A stretch of DNA of 64,000 nt. It comes from Butyrivibrio fibrisolvens. GTDB lineage: Bacteria; Bacillota; Clostridia; Lachnospirales; Lachnospiraceae. The notes beneath the pieces are model-generated. The model searched no databases. It saw only the letters and a program-made list of their open reading frames with translations, and was not told the DNA's origin. A program made the translations under genes and the position numbers. This document shows positions 8,635-62,140 of the stretch, piece after piece. Numbering within the stretch: the stretch's first letter is position 1; the number at the start of each line of letters is the position of its first letter. The DNA lies in assembly GCF_023206215.1 (NCBI RefSeq), contig NZ_CP065801.1, forward strand, positions 272,857-336,856, in the 5' to 3' direction.

Positions 8635-8733
8635 TTTTAACCTCATGTCGCGAGCAAAGCGAGTGACTAATGGTTCAAATTGGTGGAGCTCGCGACACCA
8701 ATTTGGGTTTGAAAGTGGAACACTTTCAAACTT
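8635..8733 (-). repeat. Leader element R1 (structured, SD-bearing)
   Basis: One of seven copies. Read on the minus strand: hairpin 1 (GTTTGAAAGTG/CACTTTCAAAC), hairpin 2 (CAAATTGGTG/CACCAATTTG) with loop TCGCGAGCTC, then GCTCGCGACATGAGGTTA. GAGG is the SD for the ATG at 8634. Here the hairpin-2 region TGTCGCGAGC is fully complementary to GCTCGCGACA next to the SD. AGAGGA lies just upstream of the element. Confidence 0.9.
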
Positions 8734-8769
8734 CGTCCTCTTATCCAATACCATATACTTTAGCAATAA

Positions 8770-8865
8770 TTATAATTCATTTGAGACATTTATTGCTTCT
8801 GTATTTTTTGAAAAAGGACATAAATATCCGCTCCGCACATTTCTCTCATTCAGAGCTTTAGTACC
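8770..8865 (-). pseudogene. Unrecognised C-terminal gene tail
   Basis: About 30 codons (ALNERNVRSGYLCPFSKNTE...) end in a stop at 8770, directly downstream of the serine hydrolase gene. No start or recognisable domain; probably the 3' end of a lost gene. Confidence 0.3.
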
Positions 8866-8890
8866 ATCATGACAATTACTAAAAAAACTG

Positions 8891-9886
8891 TCATCCTACG
8901 CCAATGGCAGGCAATACCTTTTGCTCGATAAAATCCACTCTGTCAAATATCCTCGGCTTAAACGTACCTGTCACTCCAACAGATACTTTTTTCTCTTTGT
9001 TTATATAGATGATATTTCCGCTGTCACCAATCGCCGCATATACCTCTTTATCATCATAGGGTTTGTACCATAAGTAGCCATAGTTCATGAAGCCAAACCG
9101 TTCGCCTAGCTTGAGATGGGGAGAGAGCATATCTTTCAGATATTCTTCTGAGATTATTCTATTTCCGTTATACAGGCCATCATTCAACACCATAGCGCCG
9201 ATTACAGCCATATCTTTCGCTGACATACATAATCCCCAGCCCGCTGTAACGCAGCCCCGAGGGTCGCTGTACCATTCATATTTCCTTGGATTCTTATTCA
9301 TGAAAAAATCAAACTGATCTTCTTTGGAGCTGTCTCCATGCGCTATTCGCTCAGGAAGGTTCAACGGCACAAACAGATTATTGTTGGCAAAATCTATGCA
9401 CTTCTCATTGGCTACCTTCTCGATTATCCCTGCCAAAATCTGAATACCAAGCGTAGCATATCTGAACTCACCTGTAATCCCGCTACGTCCTCCGAGATAA
9501 TCAAGTATCGCATATGTAAAATCCTGTGAAGTACACACCTTCTTCCAGGGTTCTGACCTGCCTTTATAAGGAGCTGTCATAGTGAGCAGATGCTTTATTG
9601 TTACATCGTATATGGTTTTCTCTCCACGCTTAACAGTATAATCCGGAAAGAAATCCATTACTTTCTGATCCACACTCTTAATGCAGCCCCTGTCTAATGC
9701 GATTCCTGCAAGCAATGCCATCACACCTTTGGTCACCGAATTGACATTCATCGCATCTTCGGTCTTAAATCCGTGCCAGCAGTCGTCATAAACATCCAGC
9801 CCTTCTTTAATCGCATAAATCTGGCAAATGTTACTCTCGTTTCCGGTGCTTTCAGAAACGTATTTATGAAGTTGTTCTTTCGTCAT
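8891..9886 (-). CDS. Serine hydrolase of the beta-lactamase/PBP-like family
   Basis: A 331-aa protein of the class C beta-lactamase fold. The nucleophile motif S-x-x-K is SVTK at residues 50-53, the following helix and GxSG-like segments are in order, and a GDSGN motif near residue 293 stands in for the KTG box. There is no signal peptide, so it should act in the cytoplasm, as many Firmicute esterase or peptidase relatives do. AGGAGG lies 6 nt before the ATG. A short inverted repeat, CTTAGGA/TCCTAAG (9899-9905 and 9918-9924), overlaps the region just upstream and may be an operator. Confidence 0.85.
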   Translation of the reverse strand: MTKEQLHKYVSESTGNESNICQIYAIKEGLDVYDDCWHGFKTEDAMNVNSVTKGVMALLAGIALDRGCIKSVDQKVMDFFPDYTVKRGEKTIYDVTIKHLLTMTAPYKGRSEPWKKVCTSQDFTYAILDYLGGRSGITGEFRYATLGIQILAGIIEKVANEKCIDFANNNLFVPLNLPERIAHGDSSKEDQFDFFMNKNPRKYEWYSDPRGCVTAGWGLCMSAKDMAVIGAMVLNDGLYNGNRIISEEYLKDMLSPHLKLGERFGFMNYGYLWYKPYDDKEVYAAIGDSGNIIYINKEKKVSVGVTGTFKPRIFDRVDFIEQKVLPAIGVG

Positions 9887-9930
9887 AAAAAGCCTCCTCT
9901 TAGGAATGATTCGGACGTCCTAAGAAAAGG

Positions 9931-10130
9931 CTAATATGATTTAAAATTGTTTTCAAGAAAAATCTTAAAAATCTTTATATTCCGATAATGCGTTTCTTCT
10001 GCTGTCTGCTTTATGTAGTCCAGCATAGTAACAGCATCTTAGTCATGCCAACCAGATGCCTTGCATATGCATTGGTAAAGGTTGACTTTCCACAGCCGCA
10101 AGGCCCTGAAACAAATATTATCTTAGCCAC
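9931..10130 (-). pseudogene. P-loop kinase remnant with internal deletion
   Basis: The frame begins at a GTG (10130) after AGAGGA and reads AKIIFVSGPCGCGKSTFTNAYA, a clear Walker A motif of a small nucleotide or zeta-toxin-like kinase. It then shifts frame and continues with the protein-like tail DYIKQTAEETHYRNIKIFK to a stop at 9931. The central catalytic part is missing. Confidence 0.65.
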
Positions 10131-10209
10131 AAATCTATCCTCTGATTTCTTAATTTTTCTTTACTTCTTTATCTTTTTTACTTCGTCATTTTTTACTTCT
10201 TTATTCCTC

Positions 10210-10824
10210 TTACTCCAAAACAAGCTCTTCTCCAGGCTTGAGTATTATCTTCCCTGGTGCATCAAAGCTCTCTGCAACACTTATATCAAAACCGCTTTTA
10301 TCCTTCACCGGTTCCATGTGGTAAGGAATCGTATGCTTTGCACCAATTGTCTTTGCACATTCTGACGCTTCAGCCACATCCATGTTGTATACTCCATCGC
10401 AGCACAGAAAAGCGTAATCCAACTTCCTATCTGCAAATCCTGCCATAGATGGAGTTGTAGATGTATCTCCGGAAAAATATGCTTTTACACCGTCAGAAAA
10501 TGTAAGTATAAAACCGACACATTCTGTGACGTTGTGATTCTTGTTATATCCAGCTTCTACAGTTTCAATAGATACAAAACCAAAATCATAATTCTGATAT
10601 TCGCCATCTTTGAGAGCATCTGACCATTTAATTACAGAGCATTCTTCATTCTTTGTAGAGATAAGATCCACCTGCGTGTGATCATAGTGTCCATGTGTCA
10701 TGAGAATAAGATCCGCCGGAAGATCATAGCCATCCCCCAAGAATGGATCAATAAAAATAACTTTCCCCTCACCTGTAACAATCCTTACGCTTCCATGTCC
10801 CTGATACAGTAATGTTGCTGCCAT
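10210..10824 (-). CDS. Metallo-beta-lactamase-fold hydrolase (UlaG-like)
   Basis: A 204-aa single-domain enzyme. The metal ligands HGHYDH are at residues 44-49, a GDTST loop near residue 117 supplies the bridging aspartate and a late PYHMEP segment the last histidine. The compact form without inserted domains matches the UlaG/YtkL-like group of cytoplasmic hydrolases. The substrate is unknown. It stands 70 nt downstream of another MBL-fold gene of a different subfamily; the two are not recent duplicates. Confidence 0.88.
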   Translation of the reverse strand: MAATLLYQGHGSVRIVTGEGKVIFIDPFLGDGYDLPADLILMTHGHYDHTQVDLISTKNEECSVIKWSDALKDGEYQNYDFGFVSIETVEAGYNKNHNVTECVGFILTFSDGVKAYFSGDTSTTPSMAGFADRKLDYAFLCCDGVYNMDVAEASECAKTIGAKHTIPYHMEPVKDKSGFDISVAESFDAPGKIILKPGEELVLE

Positions 10825-10893
10825 GTCATTTTCCTCCGTGTTTTCTATAAGTTATTTCTTTCCATTTTCTTTTGGTAAATCTATAATCTTCAT

Positions 10894-11580
10894 TTATTCT
10901 TTTACATCCTCTAACAAATCTTTAATTGTATCTTCTTTTGGAACCGGAACCCAATGTCCTTCAAGACAGGTAGTTGCCTCTGAGCTTCTGATCGTTTCTG
11001 CCAAACGCTTACTTAATTCAGGGTCTTTTTCCCATTCAGGGAATGTCCCACAGGTTGCATCTCCAACAAACAAAACGCCTTCCGCTGGAACCTCAATAAA
11101 AGTCGAATCATTTGTATGCGGCGCATCAGCCTGAAAAATCTTAATAATGCAGTTGCCTGCATCCAGCGTCATGCTATCATGAAAGATCATGTCTGCAGTA
11201 GTTACGATTACCGGTTTATTTCCCGAGTATTCTTTTCGTATACTCTCATGCATGTTCAGAAAAAACTCCGGTCCTTCTTGCGATAATCTGCGCTTAAAAT
11301 CAATCAGATACTGATTTGTGCGCTCATTTGCAATGCAAAGTCCATTAACTGCATGCATTCCAAATGTATGATCCCAGTGCCAGTGCGTGATTACTGTGAG
11401 CTTTGGAAGTGGTAAGCCATTTTCTTCCAATGCTCTATAAAACTCTTTGGTATGTGCCTCTGAATGGCCAGCATCAATAGCAATACTCCAGTTATCTCCA
11501 CGTATATATCCAAGATTGGGCCTGTCCCGTTCTTCTTCCATGGGATAGTACCATATTCTATCAGTTAATCTCTTTAACAT
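10894..11580 (-). CDS. Metallo-beta-lactamase-fold hydrolase
   Basis: About 228 aa from the ATG at 11580; the AUG at 11598 overlaps the GAGGAG ribosome site and is less likely. The motif HWHWDH (residues 66-71) binds the two metals, with downstream ligands in APHTND, FVGDATCG and CLEGHW. It resembles glyoxalase II-like or beta-lactamase-like hydrolases, but the substrate cannot be predicted. It may share a transcript with the MBL gene below it. Confidence 0.86.
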   Translation of the reverse strand: MLKRLTDRIWYYPMEEERDRPNLGYIRGDNWSIAIDAGHSEAHTKEFYRALEENGLPLPKLTVITHWHWDHTFGMHAVNGLCIANERTNQYLIDFKRRLSQEGPEFFLNMHESIRKEYSGNKPVIVTTADMIFHDSMTLDAGNCIIKIFQADAPHTNDSTFIEVPAEGVLFVGDATCGTFPEWEKDPELSKRLAETIRSSEATTCLEGHWVPVPKEDTIKDLLEDVKE

Positions 11581-11654
11581 CTTTGTATAACTCCTCATTG
11601 AAAAAAGCTATTAGCATATTTCAAATAGTTTTTCTTTTTATATACTCATATTAT

Positions 11655-12242
11655 TTATATTGTATAGCTATCTTTTTCCACCAGATCATAGATATCCTTG
11701 CCGGCTTTTTCTTCGAAATATGCTTTCAGCCTCATGTTTGAATCCCACTTCGCCTGCGGGAAATTGCCATAACGCCTTTTTACATCATTCATACGATCCT
11801 CGATGTTCATGACGCTTTCACTACCGGCAAGTGCATCACAAAGCTGGATAAGCATGTCATATTCATCAGCTTTAATCTTCCCCAGTTCTGTCTGAATCAG
11901 CTCATACTCATCTTCCGAAGTATCAACCTTTCCGATGTACTCATCAAGTCTCATATTATTGAATGAGTGTGTAAGACAAATTCTGGCAACTTCATCATAT
12001 CCAAGTGACATCATATATGAGTATCCATCCGAAACATGGCCCAAATGCCTTACTCCGAATTTTCTTCCTATATCATGAAGAAGCCCCAAGATATAAGCTT
12101 TCTCCGGGTCCATTCCGCCGCAGCCTAATGCGATCTTCTCTGCGCAGTGTGCTGCCACACGGCTATGATTCCCCCATGGTCCGGGATTGCACTTCTCTGC
12201 TTCTTCTAATAATCTTTCTGCTTCTGATCTTGTCGGTAACAT
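11655..12242 (-). CDS. HD-domain phosphohydrolase
   Basis: A 195-aa protein with the metal-dependent HD phosphohydrolase fold: H26, then H56-D57 (LLHDIGRKFG) and a later aspartate (LCDALAG). The short single domain suggests a nucleotide or small phosphoester hydrolase. It is followed 75 nt later by the MBL-fold genes on the same strand, and an operon is possible. Confidence 0.85.
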   Translation of the reverse strand: MLPTRSEAERLLEEAEKCNPGPWGNHSRVAAHCAEKIALGCGGMDPEKAYILGLLHDIGRKFGVRHLGHVSDGYSYMMSLGYDEVARICLTHSFNNMRLDEYIGKVDTSEDEYELIQTELGKIKADEYDMLIQLCDALAGSESVMNIEDRMNDVKRRYGNFPQAKWDSNMRLKAYFEEKAGKDIYDLVEKDSYTI

Positions 12243-12256
12243 ATTTTCTCCCCAAT

Positions 12257-12405
12257 TTACTGTCTCTCAGCCCACTCAAGAATTATTCTCTTATCATATT
12301 CATTAAGGTTTTCAGGCAATTCCTTTTTCTTAAAAAATCTATGTTCCATTATCTCTTCGGGATCATTGACTTTGACCTTTGATGTGCTTGCTACCTCACC
12401 TGAGG
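12257..12405 (-). pseudogene. C-terminal remnant of a second NUDIX gene
   Basis: In a frame different from the intact NUDIX gene, the segment KVNDPEEIMEHRFFKKKELP runs to a stop at 12257. This is the typical C-terminal tail of a NUDIX hydrolase. The catalytic box is missing, and the fragment starts where the intact NUDIX gene ends. Confidence 0.55.
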
Positions 12406-12908
12406 GTATTAATGTATTTTTCAAATCTCTGATTATGTGACCCGATGGTATTTTCCGAATCAACATATTCAAGAAAAGCCTCTTTATCAAGCCATTTATA
12501 TGCTACTGTCTCGCCTTCCTGCAAAGTTACACTGTCTTTATCACAGCTCACTCTGGCCAGATATGAATAAAACATAGCTCTGCTTGGATCTTTGAACAGA
12601 ACATTGACAAGTTCCATGCTATCGGGAACAAGTCCTGTCTCTTCAAGGAGTTCTCTTGTAGCCGCTTCAAGCGGCTCTTCTCCGCTAAGAGCTGATCCAC
12701 CTGCACTGGCTTCCCAAAAACCTGGGTATACGTCCTTATCATCACTTCTCTTCATCAAAAGATACGTTCCATCCTCATGAACCACAAGGATATCTACGCC
12801 AAGGTGATATCTTCCTTCCGGAATATCTTTGTAATTACCAAAGCCCCTTACCCATGTTTCTCCGGTTCTATTTCCGTCGCGATCATACAAATCCCAAATT
12901 TCAGCCAT
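12396..12908 (-). CDS. NUDIX hydrolase (Idi/DR0079-like)
   Basis: A 170-aa protein beginning AEIWDLYDRDGNRTGETWVRG, the entry strand of the isopentenyl-isomerase-like NUDIX group. The NUDIX box GSALSGEEPLEAATRELLEE continues with TGLV and has all key glycine, glutamate and arginine residues. Such enzymes cleave nucleoside diphosphate derivatives. Its end overlaps a remnant of another NUDIX gene, so the last few residues may not be original. Confidence 0.88.
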   Translation of the reverse strand: MAEIWDLYDRDGNRTGETWVRGFGNYKDIPEGRYHLGVDILVVHEDGTYLLMKRSDDKDVYPGFWEASAGGSALSGEEPLEAATRELLEETGLVPDSMELVNVLFKDPSRAMFYSYLARVSCDKDSVTLQEGETVAYKWLDKEAFLEYVDSENTIGSHNQRFEKYINTLR

Positions 12909-12959
12909 AATATCTTATTCCTCCACTTGTTTTCCATGTTTCTTCTAACAAGACCACAT

Positions 12960-13229
12960 TTACCAATGCACAAATTCTCCGGCTATAATGCCTCGAACAT
13001 TTTCATCTGCCAGAATATCATATCTCTCAGGATGCCTGTACTTATCGCCCATGATATCACCACTTCTGTGCTTCCTAAGGCTATCAAGGTCAAGATCTGC
13101 AACATAAACTCCCGGCTCACCTGAAGCCTCAAACACGCATATATCACGTCCCCACGGTACTCCGTCAAAAAGAGTCGAATGTCCATTGCAATCAGGATGC
13201 CCCATTATGTCTTCCCCCACAATATGCAT
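12960..13229 (-). pseudogene. C-terminal remnant of a carbon-nitrogen hydrolase
   Basis: The sequence CNGHSTLFDGVPWGRDICVF, followed by a VADLDLDSLRKHR strand and YRHPERYDIL, matches the last quarter of nitrilase-family amidohydrolases. The Glu-Lys-Cys catalytic residues lie in the missing part. The break point is at about 13232, where sequence shared with the 43.5-kb region begins. Confidence 0.7.
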
Positions 13230-13275
13230 TACATCTGTGTTTCTTTAATGATACATTATTAAATCATAGAAAAAA

Positions 13276-13311
13276 AGAGGCTCCTACGAATCATCTTTCG
13301 CAGAAACCTCT
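13276..13311 (-). terminator. Terminator after the GNAT/YoaP gene (copy A)
   Basis: On the minus strand AGAGGTTTCTGCGAA pairs over 15 bp (with G-U pairs) with TTCGTAGGAGCCTCT and is followed by seven T residues. The second copy of the gene has an equivalent terminator at 43521-43555. Confidence 0.85.
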
Positions 13312-13392
13312 CATAACTTGTTGACCACGTTCCATCATCTTTTGGAAAATGGAAGTAAAGGCCATTATAGAAAACGTATTTTTTATATTATT

Positions 13393-14139
13393 TTACTTCC
13401 CGATCAGTTTCAGGAACTTCTTGTCATTCATCTGCTCATTGGTTACATACTCACCATCACAAAAGAATGCATACGTTGTAACAGGTGTAGGTGCACTCTG
13501 CGCTTCATCCTTTGTCTGTATCTTGACCGCCTTGAAAGGAATCTTGTTCTTCTTTGCTGTTTCTTCAAGGACCGGAACATACTTGGCATTGAAAGGACAC
13601 TGATTTGTGTAATACAAAACATACCCTTTCTCATCTATATGCGGATGCTTGGCACATTCCTTAATTGAAGGCACCTTAGCTTTTTTATCAAAAGGAAGAT
13701 ACATAAGCTGTATTCCGTTGTCCGCTTCATCGCACACTTCAAAGCCCTTGTACTTTAAGAACTTTGGATCTGCAAGGAATGGCTTTTTCTTAGCTGATGA
13801 AAGAATACAAAGACCTTTTTTGCCTTTCTCTTTACTATCCTCAATACATGCGTTTAGAAGATCAGAAGAATATCCGTGTCCCTTAAATGAACCGGATACC
13901 CATAGGCAATCTATGTACATATAACCATCTGCATCGATCGGAACCCATGCGTTCTCGGCAGGGATATACTCTATAAAACACTTACCGCGCTCTGCACTCT
14001 TTAAAAAGACAAGCCCCTCATCAAATCTGTCCGCAAGCCAGGCTTTCTTTGACGCAACCTGAATATCTTTATTATTTGAAATTGCGCAGCATATGTGCTC
14101 CTGTTCCAGATTGTCCTTCGTAACTTTGATATACTCCAT
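13393..14139 (-). CDS. GNAT acetyltransferase fused to YoaP-type thioredoxin-like domain (copy A)
   Basis: A 248-aa two-domain protein. Residues 1-150 are a GNAT domain with its acetyl-CoA loop at FKGHGYSSDLL. After residue 165 follows a YoaP-like C-terminal domain whose NQCPFNAKYVP motif resembles a redox-active CxxA thioredoxin-like site. I start at the ATG at 14139 (MEYIKVTKDN), preceded by GGAGG. It is about 90% identical to the gene at 43601-44347. That copy has leader element R3 before its start; this one has only the plain sequence GGAGGTTAAGGCC. Confidence 0.85.
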   Translation of the reverse strand: MEYIKVTKDNLEQEHICCAISNNKDIQVASKKAWLADRFDEGLVFLKSAERGKCFIEYIPAENAWVPIDADGYMYIDCLWVSGSFKGHGYSSDLLNACIEDSKEKGKKGLCILSSAKKKPFLADPKFLKYKGFEVCDEADNGIQLMYLPFDKKAKVPSIKECAKHPHIDEKGYVLYYTNQCPFNAKYVPVLEETAKKNKIPFKAVKIQTKDEAQSAPTPVTTYAFFCDGEYVTNEQMNDKKFLKLIGK

Positions 14140-14143
14140 GGCC

Positions 14144-14300
14144 TTAACCTCCATCGTCAAACAAACTCATCTGCTGATATTTTTCAGGAAATTCACTCAT
14201 GAACCTAAAGCAATCTTCCGGATCTGACATGATCCCGTTTTCTTTGCAAGTCTTTTGAAATAGCTCTGGTGCATTCTGCTTAACTTCCTTTCCGTTTAAT
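14144..14300 (-). pseudogene. Unrecognised C-terminal gene tail
   Basis: A frame overlapping the end of the GyrI-like gene reads KEVKQNAPELFQKTCKENGI and continues through DPEDCFRFMSEFPEKYQQMS to a stop at 14144. It looks like real protein but I cannot name it. Its stop codon lies inside the ribosome site of the GNAT/YoaP gene. Confidence 0.35.
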
Positions 14301-14969
14301 CGGATGCCTTATCACTGTTTTTAATTTCTCCGGAGCAACTTTCCTTACATCACTTAGATATATTTCATGATGAAGGCGTTTATCAGTAATATCAAGAACA
14401 TATCCCTGTGCCTCCATAAATTCATGCATCATCTTAACCGTTGCAGGCTCATCATCATAAGAACCTATGTGCATACACTGAACGCAAAGCCCTTCATCTA
14501 CAGTCAGGAACTCCACATTTGAAAAGTCCATTTTCTTTTTCTTCGTCGCCTCAGATACTGCCCAGTTGAAGTCTTCCTTTGTAACAAAATCAGGAACTCG
14601 GATCACAGAGATCCAGTGAAAGTCTTCTTTATGGGAGTAATCGATTCCTGCTACCATGCTTCGCTCAGCTGGGTCAGTTTGTGTTTTAGAATTTTCTGAT
14701 GGTCGTTCCTCCTGCCACCAAAATCCTTCTAGCGGTGGAACCACATAATCGAAATATCCTTCGATACGATGATCACCTTTCTTACTCATCTTTATTGTAA
14801 AGGCAATCCCATATAGTAATCCAATAGATTTTTTATAATCACTATCTTCCTGGTTCGGATCTCCCGCTCCTCGTACAGCAATATAATTCATGCTCGGAAC
14901 CGTAATAATACCAGGTTTATTCTTGGGAAGATAAAACTCTTTATATTCTTTCTTAAAATCAAAAGCCAT
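14280..14969 (-). CDS. GyrI-like small-molecule-binding domain protein
   Basis: A 229-aa protein of the GyrI-like/AraC-effector (SRPBCC-unrelated SHS2) fold: the N-terminal EFYLPKNKPGIITVPSMNYI strand and the late LCVQCMHIGSYDDEPATVKM segment are characteristic. Such stand-alone proteins bind or hydrolyse small amphipathic molecules. The next gene upstream, 12 nt away, encodes a WYL regulator; this pairing is common in Firmicutes and suggests a shared transcript. Confidence 0.85.
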   Translation of the reverse strand: MAFDFKKEYKEFYLPKNKPGIITVPSMNYIAVRGAGDPNQEDSDYKKSIGLLYGIAFTIKMSKKGDHRIEGYFDYVVPPLEGFWWQEERPSENSKTQTDPAERSMVAGIDYSHKEDFHWISVIRVPDFVTKEDFNWAVSEATKKKKMDFSNVEFLTVDEGLCVQCMHIGSYDDEPATVKMMHEFMEAQGYVLDITDKRLHHEIYLSDVRKVAPEKLKTVIRHPIKRKGS

Positions 14970-14981
14970 ATTTATTACCCT

Positions 14982-15908: not shown

Positions 15909-16033
15909 TTTCTTTACTACACATTCATCATATCAACCCAAACATGTCATCTATATGTCATGTTTATTATATCAATTTTTTTACTTAAAACCGTAATGTG
16001 ATTTAAAAAATAAACTTCCAACTCATTAGACAC

Positions 16034-16074
16034 AAAAAAGGCTGATGAAGACTTCTAATCTCCATCAACCTTTT
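16034..16074 (-). terminator. Rho-independent terminator after the AlkZ-related gene
   Basis: On the minus strand GGTTGATGGAG (16060-16070) pairs with CTTCATCAGCC (16040-16050), closed by G-U pairs, followed by six T residues. It ends transcription from 16155-17282. Confidence 0.85.
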
Positions 16075-16154
16075 CCTACAAAATCTCACACATATTAAAT
16101 TGTCTAAAGCCTTGCATATTCCCAAGGCAACAATTATTTATTTCTCCTTCTTAA

Positions 16155-17282: not shown

Positions 17283-17290
17283 ATACTCCC

Positions 17291-18984: not shown

Positions 18985-19070
18985 TTTCTATTTCTCCGCC
19001 ACGAATAAACTTTTTGCATTGTTTCAATTCTTTTACTATATATATTTACATGTCTTTTTGCATAGTAACT

Positions 19071-21943: not shown

Positions 21944-21968
21944 TTTGCAACCTCCGACGAACATTTTA

Positions 21969-22078
21969 TCGTGTATACACGATGATATATTTTAATTTTA
22001 TCGTGTATGCACGATAATTTCAACCATTTTTGTCGTGTATACACGATGGTTTTACTTATTTTTATCGTGCATACACGA
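21969..22078 (-). promoter_or_regulatory. Four-site operator array with embedded promoter
   Basis: Four copies of the 14-bp palindrome TCGTGTATACACGA (one change each in sites 2 and 4) start at 21969, 22001, 22033 and 22065, exactly 32 bp apart. On the minus strand a -35 TTGAAA (22018-22023) and -10 TAAAAT (21995-22000) have a 17-bp spacer almost entirely filled by site 2. Equal spacing of three helical turns puts all sites on one DNA face, pointing to cooperative binding of a dimeric repressor. Confidence 0.9.
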
Positions 22079-22106
22079 CAAAAACATAGTTGTACTATAA
22101 CAGAAA

Positions 22107-22355: not shown

Positions 22356-22360
22356 AAACC

Positions 22361-26222: not shown

Positions 26223-26678
26223 TTACCTAAGTTCCATTTCATCATTCATTTTTACAAAGCCATACTTCTCATACAGAGGTCTTCCCATCTCAGTAGCTTC
26301 AAGAGAGATTGCTTTGATTCCTCTACTCTTTGCATCCTGTACAAGAAGGTCCAAAGTCTTATAAGCTATTCCCTGCCTGCGATAATCAGATGCCGTGTAC
26401 ATATTCATGATGTATGCTTTTTCACCTGATGTATTATGATATGTTGGCATTACTCTGTAATAGCTCACTCCGCCGGCACCTATAAATTTGTCCTCGTCAA
26501 ACACCAGATATGCTGTATGTGAGCCATCAGCCATAGCTTTAGAATAGTAATCTCTGGATTGCCGCTCTACCTCTGACATATCAATGCTTGCATCAAGCCT
26601 ATTTGCTGCCCTCAAAACTTCTATTCTTGTGGCGACAAGTATATCCAGATCTTCTATTGTTGCCTTTCTGAAATTCAT
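26223..26678 (-). CDS. GNAT-family N-acetyltransferase
   Basis: A 151-aa GNAT with acetyl-CoA loop YRRQGIAYKTLDLLVQDA and closing motif LEATEMGRPLYEKYGFVKMN. Its ATG directly follows the stop of the next upstream gene (TAAATG), so the pair is coupled. Its N-terminus is nearly the same as the truncated GNAT at 8512-8634, showing that the truncated gene was a close paralogue. Confidence 0.88.
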   Translation of the reverse strand: MNFRKATIEDLDILVATRIEVLRAANRLDASIDMSEVERQSRDYYSKAMADGSHTAYLVFDEDKFIGAGGVSYYRVMPTYHNTSGEKAYIMNMYTASDYRRQGIAYKTLDLLVQDAKSRGIKAISLEATEMGRPLYEKYGFVKMNDEMELR

Positions 26679-27461
26679 TTATTTACCCGCCTCTGAATTA
26701 ATCTCATCAACTATATTTGCTGGTTTTATAGTCATCTCAACCCATGCCGGAGCAAATCCACTCTTCGCTGCATTTCTAGCTGATCTTATATTTGACCATG
26801 CAGAACAGTAAAATGGCACCTTTCCTCTTTCAAGTATTTCTTTTGCCAACCTGCTTGTAAGAGCAGATGCTATTCCTTTTTGTCTGTACTCAGGAAGAAC
26901 ATCTACCCCTATCTGCCACATGTCATCACAATCAGCTGAACATGCAGCAAATCCTACCAGATTATCCTTGTCATAGGCTCCAACTCCCAGAACATCCAAA
27001 TTTTTACGATCACTGCATAGCGCATTACTCCACTCAGGTAGATATAAGTCCTTAAAGTCATCCTGTTCAAGTATTCTTGTTTCATATAAGCATTGTTCAT
27101 TGGGAATCCTCTCCACATCAGGAAGATAGTACTCCGCCATAAAACATATCTTGTACCCACGCTCTGCAAGACGTTCCTCAAGCCAGTGCATATTGGGAGT
27201 CTCAAAAAGATGGTAGAACTCATATTTATCTACGTATTCAGAAACCAGATCTTCCACTTCGCCCATTGTGGCAGCTACAACATTATTACCATAAGAAACA
27301 AAGTTACAGGTGATTGGTTCTTTATAATACCTGCGTGCATTATCTCCCAAATGAAACTTACAGATTATATTTTTCTCAGATAAAAAATCCTCCGCTTTAC
27401 ATCCTATATCTTCAGCGGATTGTCTCATTGCAATTTCTTTAATCTCTTTATTTGTTAGCAT
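26679..27461 (-). CDS. GNAT acetyltransferase with extended N-terminal domain
   Basis: A 260-aa protein: an N-terminal GNAT-like half without a good acetyl-CoA loop, and a C-terminal GNAT domain with YRQKGIASALTSRLAKEILE. Tandem-fold GNATs of this size often modify small amines or proteins; the acceptor is unknown. It ends one base before the next GNAT's start codon, forming a two-gene unit. Confidence 0.85.
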   Translation of the reverse strand: MLTNKEIKEIAMRQSAEDIGCKAEDFLSEKNIICKFHLGDNARRYYKEPITCNFVSYGNNVVAATMGEVEDLVSEYVDKYEFYHLFETPNMHWLEERLAERGYKICFMAEYYLPDVERIPNEQCLYETRILEQDDFKDLYLPEWSNALCSDRKNLDVLGVGAYDKDNLVGFAACSADCDDMWQIGVDVLPEYRQKGIASALTSRLAKEILERGKVPFYCSAWSNIRSARNAAKSGFAPAWVEMTIKPANIVDEINSEAGK

Positions 27462-34530: not shown

Positions 34531-34619
34531 TTATCTTTACCTCTCTTATTTTCAATTTGTTTTCTTGCTCTCTGTTTTGAGCTTGAAGTCATTATAGAAA
34601 AATGAGCCTGCAAAAAGAA

Positions 34620-34690
34620 CAACACTTTTTACAAAATGTGTTGATTTAAGGATCACAGGTCCCGACACGTTTTGTAAAAAGTGTTGATTT
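34620..34690 (-). repeat. Long hairpin repeat, copy B
   Basis: Same structure as 5427-5500: arms at 34621-34644 and 34664-34687 around a loop containing AGGTCCC. It lies 90 bp upstream of the SDR start and shows where the IS110 element is absent. Confidence 0.75.
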
Positions 34691-34750
34691 GTAAGTCCGA
34701 TATACTGTTTTTACTGCTCTATGGCTTGATGATACACTTCTGTATAACGC

Positions 34751-41720: not shown

Positions 41721-41820
41721 TTTTTAACCTCATGTCGCGAGCAAAGCGAGTGACTAATGGTTCAAATTGATGGAGCTCGCGTCATCAATTTGGGTTTGAA
41801 AATGGAACATTTTCAAACTT
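41721..41820 (-). repeat. Leader element R2
   Basis: Same architecture as R1. Hairpin 1 is GTTTGAAAATG/CATTTTCAAAC, with A-T where R1 and R3 have G-C. Hairpin 2 is CAAATTGATG/CATCAATTTG. SD GAGG stands 7 nt before the TraX ATG, one more than in the other copies. GGAAGGA lies upstream of the element. Confidence 0.9.
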
Positions 41821-44347: not shown

Positions 44348-44446
44348 GATTAACCTCATGTCGCGAGTGAAACGAGTGACTAATGGTTCAAATTGATGGA
44401 GCTCGCGTCATCAATTTGAGTTTGAAAGTGGAACACTTTCAAACTT
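44348..44446 (-). repeat. Leader element R3
   Basis: Hairpin 1 GTTTGAAAGTG/CACTTTCAAAC, hairpin 2 CAAATTGATG/CATCAATTTG with loop ACGCGAGCTC, then CTCGCGACATGAGGTTA. The CGCGAG loop can pair with CTCGCG. GGAGGAATAAG lies directly upstream, followed by a TTG that opens a 20-codon frame. Confidence 0.92.
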
Positions 44447-51318: not shown

Positions 51319-51422
51319 AAGTTTGAAAATGTTTTATTTTATTTTCAAACCCAAATTGAAAACGAAAGTTTCATAAATTTGAACCATTAGTCACTCGTTT
51401 TTCTCACGACATGAGGTTATCT
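51319..51422 (+). repeat. Leader element R4 (divergent member)
   Basis: Shares the element's ends (AAGTTTGAAAATG at the start, TTGAACCATTAGTCACTCG and ACGACATGAGGTTA at the end) but hairpin 1 is enlarged and hairpin 2 weakened. SD GAGG is 6 nt before the DeoR ATG. Shows the element also occurs on the plus strand, in the same orientation relative to its gene. Confidence 0.85.
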
Positions 51423-52214: not shown

Positions 52215-52334
52215 CTTCCACTTTTACATCTCTATCACACTTTACATAAAAAATCATCCAGTCAGGATCAATTGTAGAAAAATATTTTTCTCATTTTCAA
52301 AAATAGTCGTTTACTATGAGCCACCATGGCACGA

Positions 52335-53322: not shown

Positions 53323-53344
53323 ATCCACCTCCGCAAAAAAAACA

Positions 53345-53375
53345 GGCAAAGACGCTCAACAAAAGCGCCTTTGCC
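53345..53375 (-). terminator. Rho-independent terminator after nadE
   Basis: GGCAAAGACGCT (53345-53356) pairs with AGCGCCTTTGCC (53364-53375). On the minus strand it is followed by a run of eight T residues. It is close in sequence to the terminator at 55375-55414. Confidence 0.87.
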
Positions 53376-53433
53376 TTCATAGATAATAATAACATATTAT
53401 TTTGACTTTTATCTTATACTATAAGTATTATTG

Positions 53434-55335: not shown

Positions 55336-55374
55336 TATTTGTTCCTCATTTCTTTTTCTTTTCAAAATACAAAA

Positions 55375-55414
55375 AAAGCAAAGTGCGCAAACTATCTGTA
55401 AGCGCCTTTGCTTT
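55375..55414 (-). terminator. Rho-independent terminator of the maltodextrin operon
   Basis: AAAGCAAAGTGCGC (55375-55388) pairs with GCGCCTTTGCTTT (55402-55414); on the minus strand a T7 run follows. It separates the transporter genes from nadE. Confidence 0.87.
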
Positions 55415-55507
55415 AGCTATATGATATCACACTTTTATGAATATTGTTTTTAAATGTAATTGGAGTTTAAAGTCCCGATTCCTCACAGGCATTAAAATGG
55501 AACCACC

Positions 55508-56333
55508 TTACTGTTTGACTGCTCCGTCGGACACTCCGGCCACCAAAAATCTTGATAGTGCAAAGTACAGGATCACGATAGGTACTGCGATGAATATGGC
55601 ACCTGCCGCAAATCTTGAAAACTCCGTTTCGCCAAGATGTGTAAGTCCTACAGCTACAGTCCACAAGTCCCTGTTCTTAAGGAGCATGTTAGGAAGTATG
55701 AAATCGCTCCAAGGCCATGCAAAAGAAGTAAGCGCTGTATATACAAGGATTGGTTTGGACAAAGGCAGCGTTACCTTAAAGAATATAGTCGGATTGGAAG
55801 CTCCATCTATTGTTGCAGCTTCATATATTGATGTACTGATCGTATCAAAATATCCTTTTTGGACCAGATATCCCATAGGTGCACCTGCTGAGTAGATCAG
55901 TATAAGGCTCCACAGATTATTGATCATATTGAAATTGATCATGATAAGGTATACTGCTGTCATCCCCATAAAGCTTGGGAACATGCTAAGTACCAGAGTT
56001 GTCTTCATAAGAGGCTTTCTCATTTTGAATTTGAATCTGCTCATGGTATAAGCAGTAAGTATCACAAGCACTGTAGAAAGTATGCATGAGCAGGCAGAAA
56101 CAAAAGAGTATTCCTAAGCCATGCCGGATAATCATACATTGCAGTATCATTAAAAAGCTTATAATAGGTTCCTGTACTAAAGCTCTTTGGAAAAATCCAT
56201 CATAATCGTATATTGACCCTGTTGCAGAAAAGGATGCCATTACAAGCCAAAGTACGGGGAAAAAGAATATGAAGGAAACGAGTATGAGAATGATGTATGT
56301 AATAACCACTTCAGATATTCTTTCTTTTCTCAT
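55508..56333 (-). CDS. Maltodextrin ABC transporter permease, MalG-like (frameshifted)
   Basis: A reconstructed permease of about 275 aa with six helices: VVITYIILILVSFIFFFPVL at the start, the EAA cytoplasmic loop EAATIDGASNPTIFFKVTLP, and the typical ending VAGVSDGAVKQ. One frame change near 56110 joins the two parts. It is the inner of two permeases and overlaps the malF-like stop by 4 nt. Part of the CUT1 sugar importer; the ATPase is probably the shared MsmX type encoded elsewhere. Confidence 0.85.
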
Positions 56334-57614
56334 CTGAATGTATCCTCCTTCTTAAATGCTGATGAATTAACATAAGTTGACAGCGATATCACTGATGTGA
56401 TCACGAATATGATAAGGCTCACCGCAGCTCCTATTCCATAGTAATTATTATCAATTGAAAGATTATACAGCCAGTTGATAAGAAGATCTGTATCGCTGGC
56501 AAGGAAATAATCGTCAAGATAAAGGCCACCTCTAAGGAAATAGAACACACCGAAGTTATTAAAGTTGCCTACAAATCCTGTTATAAGCGTAGGAGTTGTT
56601 GAGAAGACAACAAATGGAAGTGTCAGTTTTGTGAACTGTTTCCATCTTCCTGCTCCGTCAAGGCTTGCTGCTTCATACAGTTCATTGTTCATATTAGAAA
56701 GGATTCCTGTTGCAAGCAGCATCGATGTGGGTACAGATATCCATGCATTTACAAGAAGGCCTATAAGCCTTGCCTTATTGCCGGCATCGATATCAAGAAA
56801 GCCAATGCTGCTCCCGCCAAGAGCCTTAATATAATAGTTGATAGGGCCGCCATAAGAGAACATGAATTTAAAACCAAGAAGGGTTATAAATCCGGGAACT
56901 GCATAAGCGATAATTGGAAATGCCCGCCAGAAGGTCTTTCCTTTGACACATCTCTTATTAAGAAGCAGCGCAAGAAACAAACCGCAAAAATAATTGATGA
57001 CTGTAGCACAGACTGCCCAGACTATATTCCAGCTAAGAATCCTAAAAAATGTCTCTTTGATGCCGGACATAGCGAAAATCTGCTTGAAATTATCAAATCC
57101 TACCCAGTCGATAAGCTTTGGCGGTACAATATTGCCGCCGTAGTTGGTAAAGGCTATGAGGATCATAAAGACAATTGGAAGAACATTGAATATAAGCACA
57201 CCGACTACAGGAGCAAAAGAGCTACAACATAGAATTTTTTGTCCACAAACGATTCCACCGACTTAAGAAAACCAGGCGCTCTCCTGCCGCTTTCTGCTAG
57301 CTTTTGAATATTTTTTATATCTCTGATATTGCAAAGATAAAAAATGATAACTGCTCAAGTATCATGAATGAAAGGATGCCCTTCAACATCATAATAATTG
57401 AATCATCGCCCTTGGTCCCAAGCCAAGGATCACCCTCGATGGTTCCGAGGGTGAAGAGTCCTGTCATGTCAGAGATTCCCTGAGTAAAAAGATATATAAG
57501 ATATATTGCCAGAATGCCCATATACAGTATTCCTTTGATCCTCTGACCATATAGAAACTGGCCAAGTCCCATCACTACATAAGAGCATTTGGTTTTTAGA
57601 TTACTGTGTTTCAT
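56330..57614 (-). CDS. Maltodextrin ABC transporter permease, MalF-like (frameshifted)
   Basis: A reconstructed permease of about 425 aa. The N-terminal third (YVVMGLGQFLYGQRIKGILY) is the extended region with early helices seen in Gram-positive MalF/MdxF; the later part has NVLPIVFMILIAFTNYGGNI and the EAA loop YEAASLDGAGRWKQFTKLTL. A frameshift lies near 57200-57320. Works with the following MalG-like gene. Confidence 0.85.
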
Positions 57615-57625
57615 GCCGGCACCTC

Positions 57626-59075
57626 TTAATTAGCAAGAGTATAGATTGCGTCATAGATGCTTTGGTCAGCTTTGTCAAGGGCATCCTGTATTGCCGATGT
57701 ATCTTCGTATTTGACAGTTTCTCCTTTGGACTGTCTGAAAGCATCCTTGGCAACATCGCTCAGAAGAGTCTGCATCGGGTCCCAGATCTGATCGACTGCT
57801 TTGACAGAAGGCATGAGATATATATGTCCTTCATTTAGGCTCTCAAATATCATACCTGTCACACCGCCTATTTCATCTGCTACGTCTCCCCTTGTAGGAG
57901 CTATTCCAAGGATCTGTGCTCTCTTTGTGATCATCTCATAGCTAGTAGCGAAGTTAACGAATTCTATGCAGGCATCGCGATGCTCTGTATAAGCACTGAT
58001 GCCATATCCATTCACGCCGCCCATTACGATCGTGTCTGTATCTGCTGTACCGGATTCAAGATCACCGTCAGATGGCATCTTGCCGGGGAGCTCGACCATA
58101 CCAAGGTTCTCGGTGGCCTTCTTGTCAGCCTCTTCTTCGCTCAAGCCTTCGCCTGTATATACTTCTTGTAACCTGTCATAGAAAAGGACGTAAGTGTCAG
58201 GGGGTTGAGATTGAGCAAAAATATGATCCATCAGCAACCTTAGAATATCTGCTCTGCTTGATGGAATCGTCAAGGCACTCTTCGCTCATGATCCCGGCAA
58301 ACTGTCTCATAGCCGCTATACCATTGGCTGTATCCCCGGCTGCAAAGCCGATATCTTCTGAGTTAAAGCTTCCATCTTCGTTTTGACCAAATACATATCC
58401 GCCATATGAGAATATGAACTCAGCCATCATATAAAGGTCATTGCAAGGCGCAACAAGACCGAATTTCTCGCCATTAGATGACTCATAAAGCTCTTTGGAA
58501 TATGAATATAAGGAGCTCCAGTTTTCGAAGAAATCAGGAGTACCGCTTCCATCACTATCCCATGTACTCTCCCAATCTTCCGGCAGAAGATCTTTCCTGT
58601 AAAAGAGCATCGGCTCCTGAACATTAACCGGTACTCCGCAGGTGTACTTCTGACCGTCAACAGTTACGGAAAATGCATCCCAGGCTTCCTGCGGTATCTG
58701 GTCTGCGCATTCAAAATCCTCTTTGTTTATCGCCATGAGATGTTTGTCTTCTGCATAGGCCATAAGCTTATCGTTGGCCTGGTACAAAACATCAGGGCCA
58801 TAGCCATAAGGGCCGTTTTCTGCAAGATTACTGTATTCTTCCATATTGGCATCAACTGCCTGAATGCCCTTGTCTTTATAGGCTTCATTAAAGGCATTTA
58901 AAAGTTCATCAAGATAGCCTTCTGATTTGGCCGTATCATTTTCGAGGATTCTGAGAGTGATAGTCTCTCCGCCTTCACCTGTCCCTGTCTGTGTCTCTTG
59001 ACTTTTGCCACAGGCGCAGGTTCCAAGGGTCATAACTGTTGTCAATACAGTAGCAGTAACTTTCTGATATTTCAT
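57626..59075 (-). CDS. Maltodextrin-binding lipoprotein, MalE-like (frameshifted)
   Basis: A reconstructed solute-binding protein of about 480 aa. The N-terminus has a lipoprotein signal (TVMTLGTCACGKS), followed by extracellular binding-protein features (PDVLYQANDKLMAYAEDKHL, GVPVNVQEPMLFYRKDLLP, GYGISAYTEHRDACIEFVNF). A frame change near 58200 joins the halves. GGAGGAGAAATATT precedes the ATG, which overlaps the amylase stop (ATGA). It should capture maltodextrins outside the cell for the two permeases. Confidence 0.87.
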
Positions 59076-60746
59076 AATATTTCTCCTCCATCTGCAAATA
59101 GCCTGAAACTCCGGGGGCTATCTGTAATTCGTTATAAGTACCTACCTCATCTGTCTGATTTATATAAAGCTCGGCATCTGCTCTTTGGCCATGTCTTTTC
59201 AAAATCAGTACCCTTCCATCTTGTGAAGCATTTACCAATGTACCTTCAAAGAGAATTCACATTTTTTTCTAATTAGGGATAACTTACTAAGCAATAATAC
59301 TGCCTTATTGTCCTTATTAAGAGCTGTCTCCCAGTCCATACATCTGCGGCAATCCGGATCATATCCTCCCATGGTATAGCACTCCCGTACCGTAGAATAT
59401 GGATGGAGCACCGAGGAAAAGATATAAAAGGCAGAGTGCAGCATAGAGTTTGTCCTTATCTCCCTTGACCTCATTTAAAAATCTGTCGGTATCGTGACTG
59501 TCCAAAGGTTCAGCATCATATCATTAACTGTATCGGTATTTCGCATAAGTATGTCATTAAGCTTTTGTGCCGTCTTCGTGGCATCCAGTTTATTATATGC
59601 GAAATAGTCAAGGCATGCCTTAGTAAAAGCGTAATTCATGATGCTGTCATACTGATCGCCTCTAAGGTAAACCGATGCGTCGTGCCAGTTCTCCCCGATT
59701 ATGGCTGCATCTTTTTTGACAGATTTAATCGCTTTTCGATTTCCTCAAAAATCGTGGCTGATCTCATCAGATACGTCAAGCCTCAACCGTCAATATCGTA
59801 CTCCTGTATGTAGTATAGGGCTATTGCGATAAGATAGTCCTGCACTGCCGGGTTGGAGGTATTCCATTTGGGCATATAATCGCAACCAGCAAAGACTTCA
59901 TAATTTAGAGGATTCTTACAGGGTCTGTCACCGCGGATCACAAAGTAATCAAAATATTCAGAGTCTTTGCCTTTCTTGATGACATCCTGAAACAACTCGT
60001 TTTTTCACTTACATGATTAAAAACCGCATCCAGAACTATTCGCATGTTACGCTTATGAAGCTGTTCCACAAGGTCCTTAAAATCTTCCTTGCTACCAAAG
60101 TGCTCATCTATATCATAGTAATCAACTATGTCGTATTTGTGATTGGAAGGCGATCTGAATATGGGCGTAAGATAAAGGGCATCGCAGCCTATACTTTTGA
60201 TATAGTCAAGTTTTGAAATGATCCTTTAATATCTCCTCCTGCAAAACTCTTTGGAGTTGGCTTATCTCCCCACTTAAGGTTGATATAGCTCTTATCTTTG
60301 TTATCATCTCCTATACAGAATCTGTCTATGAATATCTGATAGAAGCAGCTATTACATAGCCATTCAACCTTATGATGGATGTCAGCTTCGTTTATATACG
60401 GATACTGGAAAAAATTGTAATATCCCTTACTAAAATCATAATCAAGTGAAGCGCCGTCTTCTGAAAAGTAGTAATAATTCTCTCCGTCATTTAGATAAAA
60501 AACATACGCAAGCCTTGTATCATCAAGCTTTAAGCGAATAGAATAGTAATCATATATCCTGCCGGTACCTATTTTGGTCATTGGCTTTTTGTATCGGCTT
60601 TCTGCAATCTTGTACTTGCTCTCGTATATTATATAAGCATCCTTGATATCATCAGCTGCTGTTCTGAGCCTTATAACAATTTCATTGTCTGATACAGGAA
60701 AACAATATGCAGAATCTGTAATGTGCTGTAATGCTAATTGATTCAT
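59072..60746 (-). CDS. GH13 neopullulanase/maltogenic amylase-like enzyme (several frameshifts)
   Basis: A reconstructed GH13_20-type enzyme of about 555 aa without a signal peptide. The N-terminal CBM34-like domain is MNQLALQHITDSAYCFPVSD to about residue 120. It is followed by the catalytic domain entry (NSCFYQIFIDRFCIGDDN ... YFDYFVIRGDRPCKNPLNYE, NPAVQDYLIAIALYY) and late YDPDCRRCMDWE. At least four frame changes occur. The start at 60746 is 6 nt after the SD of leader element R5. It probably degrades imported maltodextrins. Confidence 0.8.
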
Positions 60747-60844
60747 ACCTAACCTCATGTTGCGCGCAAAGTAAGCCACTAATAGTTCAAAATGATGGGC
60801 TCGCAATATCAATTTGGGTTTGAAAATGAAACATTTTCAAAGTT
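60747..60844 (-). repeat. Leader element R5
   Basis: Hairpin 1 is TTTGAAAATG/CATTTTCAAA; hairpin 2 is degraded (CAAATTGATATTGCGAGCCC). Ends in AACATGAGGTTAGGT before the amylase ATG, keeping the 6-nt SD spacing. No SD is obvious upstream of this copy; it lies 9 nt after the lipoprotein stop. Confidence 0.85.
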
Positions 60845-60853
60845 GGATTCTGA

Positions 60854-61620
60854 TCAGTTTGCCCCTACCGGGTCAGAATTTCTTACAATAGTAAGCGTGT
60901 CCTGAGCCTGATTGTCAGGATTGGTTGTAAGAGTGATGGTGTAGTTGCCGTCTTCTTTAACCTGTACATTAGCTTTGTCAACTGAGTCTGCAAGGCCGCC
61001 TGCATTCTCCATCTGAGTATCATCAATCTGTGTGAACTTGCCGTAGCCTTTTTGACCATCCATGACCAGTCAGGAATGATCTGGAACTGATCGCCTTCAT
61101 AAAGATCTATTGTAAGTGAGAATTCATTAACTGCATTACCTGTAGGAACAAGCTCAAACTGGGCCTTGTCTTCATCACTAAGGTCTGCAGCCCAGTTGTT
61201 AAGTGCAAGTGATCCTGTCTTGGAAGTTCCTGCAATGTACCAGTGACGTGTATCTTCAGATACTTCTGCAGCTCTGAAATCTCCATAAAGAGTTGTATCC
61301 TTGGTAAAAGAATCTGTTTTTAAGATCCTTCTTGCTGGATTCAAGATATGAAGGTGTCTCATACCATCCGTTAAATTCACCTGACTCTGCTGTCTCAAAT
61401 GCTTCATATGAAGACTTATCAAGAACTTCTCCGACGTTAGCTGTTGCTGTTCCGATAGTCTCGTCCTGATTCATAAATGTTACTGTTATCGTCTCTGCAG
61501 TACTTGCAGCGCTACCGGCCTGACTGGAAGTATCTCCGCATCCTGTCAGCAATCCTGCTGTATGCAGAACTACTCCTGTTAAAAGAGCTGCGACTTTAGA
61601 TAATACGTTATTCTTTTCAT
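60854..61620 (-). CDS. Starch/maltodextrin-operon lipoprotein (frameshifted)
   Basis: A reconstructed lipoprotein of about 255 aa: signal sequence with lipobox LLTGCG, an InlB-type short repeat (VTFMNQDETIGTATANVGEV ... FNGWYETPSY), then a beta-rich module (HWYIAGTSKTGSLALNNWAA, DLYEGDQFQIIPDWSW, YTITLTTNPDNQAQDTLTIV) resembling starch-binding modules of SusE/F type. Restoring one A in the second codon run (ATGAAAAG to ATGAAAAAG, 61613-61617) and further indels gives one frame. First gene of the operon; GGGAGGTAAAT precedes the ATG. Likely binds glucan at the surface. Confidence 0.7.
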
Positions 61621-61658
61621 ATTTACCTCCCTTGTTTGTATCATGTGATTTTTGCGCC

Positions 61659-61829
61659 GATCGTGACTTAAGTTGATCGATGTTTAAGTTGATCGTTTCT
61701 TAAATCGATCGGTGCTTAAGATTGATCGTTGTTTAAGTTGATCGTTGCTTAAATTGATCGGTGCTTAAATTGATCGGTGCTTAAGTTGATCGGTGTTTAA
61801 ATTGATCAGTGCTTAAATTGATCAGCGCG
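61659..61829. repeat. Tandem array of a 16-bp unit in the mal operon leader
   Basis: Ten complete units and a partial one of GATCGGTGCTTAAATT, with small changes, lie end to end (starts 61659, 61675, 61691, 61707, 61724, 61740, 61756, 61772, 61788, 61804, 61820). All are 16 bp except one of 17. They fall between the predicted mal promoter and the first gene, so they would be transcribed in a 5' leader of about 235 nt. Confidence 0.92.
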
Positions 61830-61834
61830 TTTTT

Positions 61835-61933
61835 GTTAACCTTGTTAACTTAGCTGTTAAATTATAAATATCACTTTTGCCCAAACTTGTCAATATGGCA
61901 TATTTTTTGGTATTATTGGGTTAACTTGTTAAC
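61835..61933. promoter_or_regulatory. Divergent mal/lacI-type promoters with paired GTTAAC operators
   Basis: Leftward: -35 TTGACA (61888-61893), 17-bp spacer, -10 TATTTA (61865-61870). Rightward: -35 TTGTCA (61887-61892), 18-bp spacer, -10 TATTAT (61911-61916). At each expected start site lies a doubled palindrome, GTTAAC-CTT-GTTAAC (61835-61849) and GTTAAC-TT-GTTAAC (61920-61933). The LacI-type protein encoded to the right is the likely ligand, repressing both directions. Confidence 0.8.
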
Positions 61934-61958
61934 TTAACTAATCTAAAGGAAGAGCACC

Positions 61959-62047
61959 AGTTTGAAAGTATTCCACTTTTAAACCCAAATTGATGACGCG
62001 AGCTCCATCAATTTGAACCACTCGTTTCACTCGCGACGTGAGGTTAA
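61959..62047 (+). repeat. Leader element R6 (first of a tandem pair)
   Basis: Hairpin 1 arms GTTTGAAAGT/ACTTTTAAAC, hairpin 2 CAAATTGATG/CATCAATTTG with loop ACGCGAGCTC; a short internal deletion removes part of the TTAGTCACTCG section. It ends GTGAGGTTAA and runs directly into R7. AAAGGA lies upstream. Confidence 0.88.
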
Positions 62048-62140
62048 GTTTGAAAGTGTTTCACTTTCAAACCCAAGTGTGTCATGACTCCACCAATTTG
62101 AACCATTGATCCTCGTTTCACTCGCGACATGAGGTTAAAA
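62046..62140 (+). repeat. Leader element R7 (second of a tandem pair)
   Basis: Hairpin 1 GTTTGAAAGTG/CACTTTCAAAC is intact, while hairpin 2 is altered (CCCAAGTGTGTCATGACTCC). Ends ACATGAGGTTAAAA directly before the LacI ATG, with the standard 6-nt SD spacing. Confidence 0.88.

Follow-up and report, generated by a model that had tools for sequence, protein, structure and literature searches.

The window analyzed here is a stretch of 64,000 nucleotides at the end of contig C2 in a genome of Butyrivibrio fibrisolvens (G000; 4.45 Mb in two contigs, C1 and C2). It carries seven copies (R1–R7) of a dispersed element of ~95 nt with the core AGTTTG...GAGGTTA, which ends in a predicted Shine–Dalgarno (SD) sequence. 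Our analysis indicates that this is quite probably a non-autonomous, structured mobile element that is placed just upstream of an ATG. The copies and the sites compared with R1 are the following.

8637..8733, minus strand: R1; SD GAGGTTA followed by AAA and an ATG at 8634-8632; truncated GNAT-like fragment of 40 codons downstream
8734..8745, minus strand: SD-like AAGAGGACG, immediately 5' of R1
26679..26694, minus strand: element-free paralogous site; SD-like AGAGGCGGG, followed by TAAATAA and the ATG of the intact GNAT gene at 26226-26678
41724..41820, minus strand: R2; TraX gene downstream, its reading frame disrupted in this assembly copy
44350..44446, minus strand: R3; SD followed by ATC and an ATG at 44347-44345; GNAT/YoaP protein downstream
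51319..51420, plus strand: R4; diverged, with the loop of predicted helix H1 5 nt longer; DeoR-family regulator downstream
60749..60844, minus strand: R5; double change in the predicted pseudoknot helix (TTGCG:CGCAA), weakly supported; GH13 amylase downstream
61958..62047, plus strand: R6; first member of a tandem pair, its SD end abutted by R7
62046..62138, plus strand: R7; second member of the tandem pair; ATG at 62141-62143

All seven copies reported by an earlier, sequence-only reading of this DNA are present, align from end to end and were recovered by our covariance model. The short distance to the start codon was likewise confirmed, with an ATG 3 nt past GAGGTTA in R1, R3, R4, R5, and R7 and 4 nt past it in R2, while R6 joins R7. 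The genes named in that reading held in part: Pfam supports TraX, GNAT/YoaP, DeoR, and GH13 (the last taken from the duplicate copy at C2:27090), and no match to LacI was found for the single fragment tested. Not all carrier genes are intact in the window, as the open reading frames (ORFs) behind R1, R2, and R7 end at 40, 7, and 11 codons. The R1 ORF resembles the beginning of the intact GNAT gene at 26226-26678, an element-free paralog of the R1 fragment, and the C1 paralog of the R2 gene, located behind its own element copy, is an intact TraX. Window positions 33615-53669 align with C2:1-20000 at 98.9% identity with 157 gaps, and the later copies keep the matching order; R2–R7 and C2:8064-28487 are thus one set of places that was counted twice. 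The overlap apparently reflects a circular replicon of ~306 kb that was left unclosed, and uncorrected indels in it would account for several of the broken frames in the window.

Copies and insertion sites in relation to start codons

As the sequence-only reading had proposed, a covariance model (model R1, distinct from copy R1; built from 28 copies; cut-off E ≤ 0.01) was used to search the genome. Scoring 150 of 1734 first-look candidates, by which weak copies may be missed, yielded at least 139 matches, including all seven window copies, and 133 were unique after removal of six duplicates due to contig-end redundancy. G000 contains the sequence GACATGAGGTTA 105 times, and 12 other genomes of the genus together contain it once. 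Fourteen abutting pairs (one a duplicate) were found among the 139 matches, eight of them spaced exactly 95 nt and the others 43–96 nt. On C1, 86 of 112 matches are co-oriented with the presumed leading strand, given an origin at ~0.77 Mb assumed from synteny with G041 (B. fibrisolvens D1), and ordinary gene strand bias may contribute to this.

The relation to start codons was evaluated across the genome. Of the 133 unique copies, 103 scored at least 60 bits and 98 retained a recognisable end motif (five were dropped); nine of these are followed directly by another copy, so that 89 last or only copies remained. In 53 of the 89, an ORF of 50 aa or more begins 1–6 nt past GAGGTTA, compared with 6.8% of the 41,534 flank positions subjected to the same test, and the ATG lies at +3 in 34 and at +4 in 14 of these 53. 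The claim that the element always ends in the ribosome-binding site of a gene thus fails genome-wide, since 36 copies lack an ORF start. In 23 of these 36, an ATG is nonetheless present at +2 to +4 (control, 7.5%), so that the ATG itself seems to be part of the target. Six of the 23 represent genes that are broken or start later (C2:28391, C2:281493, C2:8064, C1:2580021, C1:624632, and C1:1048778), and the remaining 17 have an ATG and no recognisable gene; at C1:1849137 and C1:2259403 the ATG sits, as judged by eye, inside a terminator-like hairpin. Random location or orientation, by which the sequence-only reading would have been refuted, was therefore found only to the extent that gene-less copies exist, yet the position relative to the ATG is non-random.

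Comparison with G041 captured an insertion directly. This genome and G094, an uncultured Butyrivibrio, both carry the element within the genus; G041 is assigned to D1 because a copy has the same coordinate on its C2 as in plasmid pNP243. For 23 of 125 copy clusters (one a duplicate), the G041 stretches compared contained the two flanks. At C1:168613, G041 reads AAAGGTAGGTA joined directly to TTTATGGC, and G000 reads AAAGGTAGGTA, 95 nt of element, and then TTTATGGC; the joined flanks match G041 at 119 of 121 bases, with no gap and no target duplication. The insertion at this site was thus clean, without target duplication, and fell between the native SD and the ATG. A second empty site, at C1:495436, has diverged flanks, with an SD on one side and an ATG on the other. 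The D1 plasmid pNP243 has a copy with AGGAGG before it and the annotated start of a GH43 gene behind it. Copies at C1:360240, C1:189145, and C1:1116534 are clearly common to G000 and G041; those at 626592, 663000, 268291, and 867772 correspond, as judged by eye, to G041 relatives that are diverged or decayed, and the other compared sites are empty in G041 or too diverged to read. Together, the shared and the empty sites reveal both old and recent insertions.

Degraded copies were also encountered. Among the matches listed, at least 18 CATGAGGTTA sites lie outside the model matches, and at several of them just the terminal part of the element is left before an ATG; we infer that such SD-end remnants are decayed copies in which the SD was retained, and others could be chance. 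The tandem and decayed copies look like transposition debris. In a G041 stretch holding the ortholog of C1:544724 (L212; G041 C1:206001-226000), other structured repeats of the CCGACATAGAAGTTCATCCATGAACTTC... type replace the element and lie within an apparent SD-ending hairpin element, a hint of more repeat families at gene starts.

Several observations weigh against a mobile element that targets the region before an ATG. The left half of the putative target is weak: among 43 gene copies, 20 have a left-flank SD match (5/6), as against a single one in each of two windows farther upstream, and among 33 non-gene copies 4 have one (0 and 3 in the control windows). As the SD is common in the left flank at genes and rare at non-gene copies, it belongs mostly to the gene itself and is a weak requirement of the target at best. 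Some copies, such as C1:965334 and C2:137120, have neither a gene nor an ATG. Of the six sites aligned, only C1:168613 is a perfect empty site; the flanks at 374657 and 798589 have diverged too far for the ends to be placed exactly, and 2580021 and 1048778 are uninformative. Copies shared by both species, such as C1:360240, could reflect retention for function, and no autonomous copy or matching transposase was found.

Predicted fold and distribution across genomes

Compensatory changes support a fold of the SD-bearing strand into two hairpins (H1 and H2) and a 3' arm with two alternative partners, its own 5' arm (H3) or the loop of H2 (pseudoknot). Covariation was evaluated in a MAFFT alignment (A5) of 34 distinct sequences, drawn from five genomes of the genus and from four other genera. 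The pseudoknot structure (H1, H2, a 4-nt segment paired with the SD, and the H2 loop paired with the 3' arm) displayed 87.2% paired cells against 79.1 in shuffled alignments and double changes in 21 of 31 pairs against 10.8, with none of 500 shuffles reaching either measure, and the alternative H3 structure displayed 19 of 28 pairs against 10.9 (1 of 500 shuffles); these statistics are inflated by relatedness, and the structures were drawn from the tested sequences, which favors them. Sliding the structure by 1–3 columns lowered the paired fraction to 23–46%, and double-change pairs occur in every helix (H1, H2, pseudoknot/H3, and the SD pairing).

The individual pairings vary with lineage. 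As judged by eye, the 4-nt segment and the last bases of the SD with which it pairs read AACC:GGTT, CACC:GGTG (G290), TGCC:GGCA (G424), or AGCC:GGCT (G221); single copies deviate, and no such pair is clear in the G366/G335/G408/G276/G201 group. The predicted pseudoknot helix reaches 10 bp in G366 (TCTGCGCGGC:GCCGCGCAGA) and G335 (TCTGTGCGAC:GTCGCACAGA). In a loop-shuffle control, 12 of 18 variants had at most 7 of 300 shuffled loops that bound the 3' arm as well as the real loop did; support for the pseudoknot was weaker in the other six (R5, L196, G290, G290b, G136, and G201) and absent in G136. When arms were swapped, a variant's own pairing beat the mean in 13 of 18, the exceptions being R5, L207, G424, G424b, and G136. 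Single-sequence folding was uneven, with z from -0.5 to -4.2 for six window copies. In B. fibrisolvens D1 (L183-L222), H1 is of two unrelated types, GTTTGAAA..TTTCAAAC and GGAGTTAATC..GATTAACTCC, with a similar 3' half, as if the left part were exchangeable.

In agreement with the earlier statement that no known riboswitch or repeat family is recognisable, Rfam gave no match over the whole window at the gathering score, and at E up to 5 (seven loci) no listed match overlapped an element copy. A promoter or terminator element was also rejected: around the one copy scanned, a promoter-like match on the SD end was at chance level, and no terminator lies within the element.

The element is sparsely distributed. 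Within the genus, 5 of 79 genomes carry it (52 candidates scored in each), and in the family model R1 detected it in 7 of 397 genomes; a broader covariance model (model R2) detected it in 13 of the 397, belonging to 13 genera (10 candidates scored per genome), with G000 included in each count. Among the 12 carriers from other genera, G188 lacks the 3' half, and the single copies of G136 and G286 have no start codon behind them; without these three, there are nine other Lachnospiraceae genera in which one or more copies, diverged in sequence but similar in fold, lie at a start codon. For G335 and G201 this is based on a single copy each, and the matches in G236, like those in G188, lack the SD end. 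In the other genera, 25 of 31 copies end within -2 to +7 nt of an ORF start, with ORFs of 50 aa or more (8/8 in G133, 3/3 in G221, 3/3 in G366, 2/5 in G290, and 3/4 in G424), and among within-genus relatives 19 of 29 copies lie at an ORF start (18/25 in G041). This test omitted tandem upstream copies or fragments (the first copy of L276, and L202:8311), antisense echoes (L196 and L199), double listings (L264 and L300), matches without an SD end (L270, L278-L282, and L298), and unretrieved copies; scoring the seven non-SD matches as misses gives 25 of 38 for the other genera.

Outside the family, phage sequences and viral contigs contained no match to the element, and a phage origin was rejected accordingly. 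In the plasmid collection, only pNP243 was matched, and queries from two other lineages matched nothing. Matches of 17 nt in Anabaenopsis and Burkholderia had no model match and are attributed to chance.

Other repeats in the window include an array of about ten 16-nt units (GATCGNTGNTTAARTT-like) at 61643-61833, just 5' of the R6/R7 pair, a tandem of a 32-nt palindromic unit (TATCGTGTATACACGATA) at 21964-22081, and a 100-nt repeat pair at 5424-5523 and 34612-34711 (93% identity), one member of which lies inside the redundant contig end.

Downstream genes and candidate routes of spread

From the 53 ORF-adjoining copies, twenty downstream proteins, taken mostly in score order with some skipped, were scanned for family membership. 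The families identified were peptidase M3, glycerol-3-phosphate dehydrogenase, GGDEF-EAL, FHA, ATP-grasp, DapB, an ABC permease, fumarase, ASCH/GNAT, sortase (twice), GHKL, FliS, radical SAM, TraX, DHODB, an ECF-transporter-like protein (just below the cut-off), Dus, PFK, and a hydrolase. This diversity argues against a single regulon and bears on the explanation that the element is a cis-regulatory RNA leader, with its carriers forming the regulon of one trans factor or ligand that acts through SD sequestration and a pseudoknot/H3 switch. The compensatory changes that keep the fold and the SD pairing across genera, as well as the two possible partners of the 3' arm, would suit such a leader. 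However, no common pathway unites the twenty proteins (PFK, DapB, FliS, Dus, sortase, fumarase, and others), the element is missing from some orthologs of carrier genes, copies precede non-genic ATGs (the 17 of 36 described above, and some in terminator-like hairpins by eye), and just 13 of 397 family genomes carry it. A shared trans regulator is therefore not supported, and we consider a regulon of this kind unlikely. The sequence-only reading had envisaged a spreading leader, perhaps controlled by one trans factor; the element is indeed structured, spread, SD-ending, and pointed at an ATG, and what is not supported is that it is primarily a regulatory leader under a single trans factor. Translational control by the predicted fold is plausible.

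Spread could alternatively have been enzyme-free, by template switching or gene conversion between 5' untranslated regions (UTRs) that share SD-like and AAAATG-like microhomology. SD-like and ATG sequences do often flank the element, on both the donor and the target side, and a transposase was not found; well-preserved copies at unrelated sites nevertheless have identical ends with unrelated bases outside, and a passive process would be expected to leave fewer than the more than 100 copies seen in one lineage. These features make an enzyme-free origin improbable.

Two transposase families, Y1_Tnp (PF01797) and Transposase_20 (PF02371), were tested as candidate mobilisers. Elements of the IS200/IS605 type, mobilised by Y1 HUH enzymes, form single-stranded DNA (ssDNA) hairpins and insert 3' of a short target without duplication, and a 4-nt guide pairs with the right cleavage site. 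Several properties of our element recall a non-autonomous derivative: the one perfect site lacks a target duplication, the right end shows covariation with the 4-nt segment that lies 5' of the last hairpin, and Y1_Tnp genes are present in G000, G041, and G094. However, Y1_Tnp was detected in all 17 genus genomes tested, these three included, irrespective of the element; all three Butyrivibrio carriers were positive and none of four carriers outside Butyrivibrio (G133, G290, and G366, 98–100% complete; G424, 68%). Moreover, a pattern scan of 29 Y1 loci, 20 from the survey of the genus and 9 from that of the carriers, revealed no element hairpin, with short GAGGTTA strings alone in some. A Y1 origin is thus largely refuted and, in our estimation, very unlikely.

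In IS110/IS1111-type elements a bridge RNA reads the target, and although a bridge-like RNA reading both target flanks would suit the ATG preferred on the right, the SD on the left in genes, the absence of duplication, the abutting pairs, and the conserved fold, this reading is also largely refuted and the least probable of all, as Transposase_20 is missing from 8 of 11 carriers (present in 3) and present in 6 of 11 non-carriers, and no element motif or hairpin was found in 25 pattern-scanned IS110-type loci. Unless a divergent enzyme escaped detection, neither family can be the general mobiliser. An autonomous copy made of separated ends was likewise rejected: inspection by eye of six partial or decayed copies, with no family search made, revealed no recognisable transposase. 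The likeness to IS200/IS605-derived elements, repetitive extragenic palindromes (REPs), and IS110 lies in structured ends, the absence of duplication, and short guide complementarity or an RNA-read target; the difference is that the required transposase families are missing in most non-Butyrivibrio carriers tested.

We return to a non-autonomous mobile element, whose settling site is most often between the SD and the start codon and which supplies a replacement SD. It would be mobilised in trans by an enzyme that recognises its fold, as ssDNA or RNA, together with an ATG-containing target. As the 3' end of the element is itself an SD at normal spacing, the gene keeps a ribosome-binding site, and its translation would then be placed under the SD and the fold of the element. 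Abutting pairs may have arisen by insertion at a copy's own junction, where GAGGTTA would meet AGTTTG. More tentatively, and at present only as a possibility, the element may belong to a Lachnospiraceae family of mobile leaders whose machinery, neither Y1 nor IS110, reads a start-like target (insertion point followed by NNNATG) through a folded RNA or ssDNA.

Comparison with known repeats and significance

In size, dispersal, and non-coding nature the element resembles BOX and miniature inverted-repeat transposable elements (MITEs), and it fails the tested defining marks of terminal-inverted-repeat MITEs, Y1, and IS110 elements. Regarding the first of these, its ends (AGTTTG... and ...GAGGTTA) are not mutual inverted repeats, and a target-site duplication was absent, with one perfect site, a fixed right end (GGTTA), and a variable left flank. 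BOX of Streptococcus pneumoniae is a family of small, interspersed, non-coding repeats in many copies with predicted stem-loop RNA folds, which may alter expression or form reading frames and for which ISSpn2 was proposed as the mobiliser (PMC3049150). These traits of small size, dispersal, and a predicted fold are shared; BOX is set apart by a modular boxA-boxB-boxC architecture with terminal inverted repeats (PMC3049150), whereas our element has no inverted-repeat ends, a predicted pseudoknot beside its SD, and a preference for positions before an ATG. The bcr1-bcr18 repeats of the Bacillus cereus group are intergenic, some of them MITE-like and some with conserved RNA folds transcribed in 5' UTRs, and the accessible portion of that report describes no tie to start codons (PMC3446304). 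The TAACTGA direct repeats of Beggiatoaceae mostly point toward, and lie a few nucleotides from, the start codons of functionally unrelated genes; they consist of heptamers in arrays, show little SD character, and have no predicted fold (PMC4679880), in contrast to the 95-nt fold here, which supplies an SD. Our literature search, with most subscription journals outside reach, found no paper on this element.

A 5' UTR that receives an insertion normally suffers in expression, and an element that targeted the gap between SD and ATG and replaced the SD would follow a safe-site strategy of a distinct kind. A search for the mobiliser is made tractable by the covarying pseudoknot, by the lack of known transposases, and by the occurrence of the element in nine other genera. 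If a mobile leader indeed reads a start-like target, re-supply of the SD would let gene starts be colonised with little harm, and the translation of many genes would be rewired at once. The element would also be a natural source of new 5' UTRs, its decay leaving behind a domesticated ribosome-binding site.

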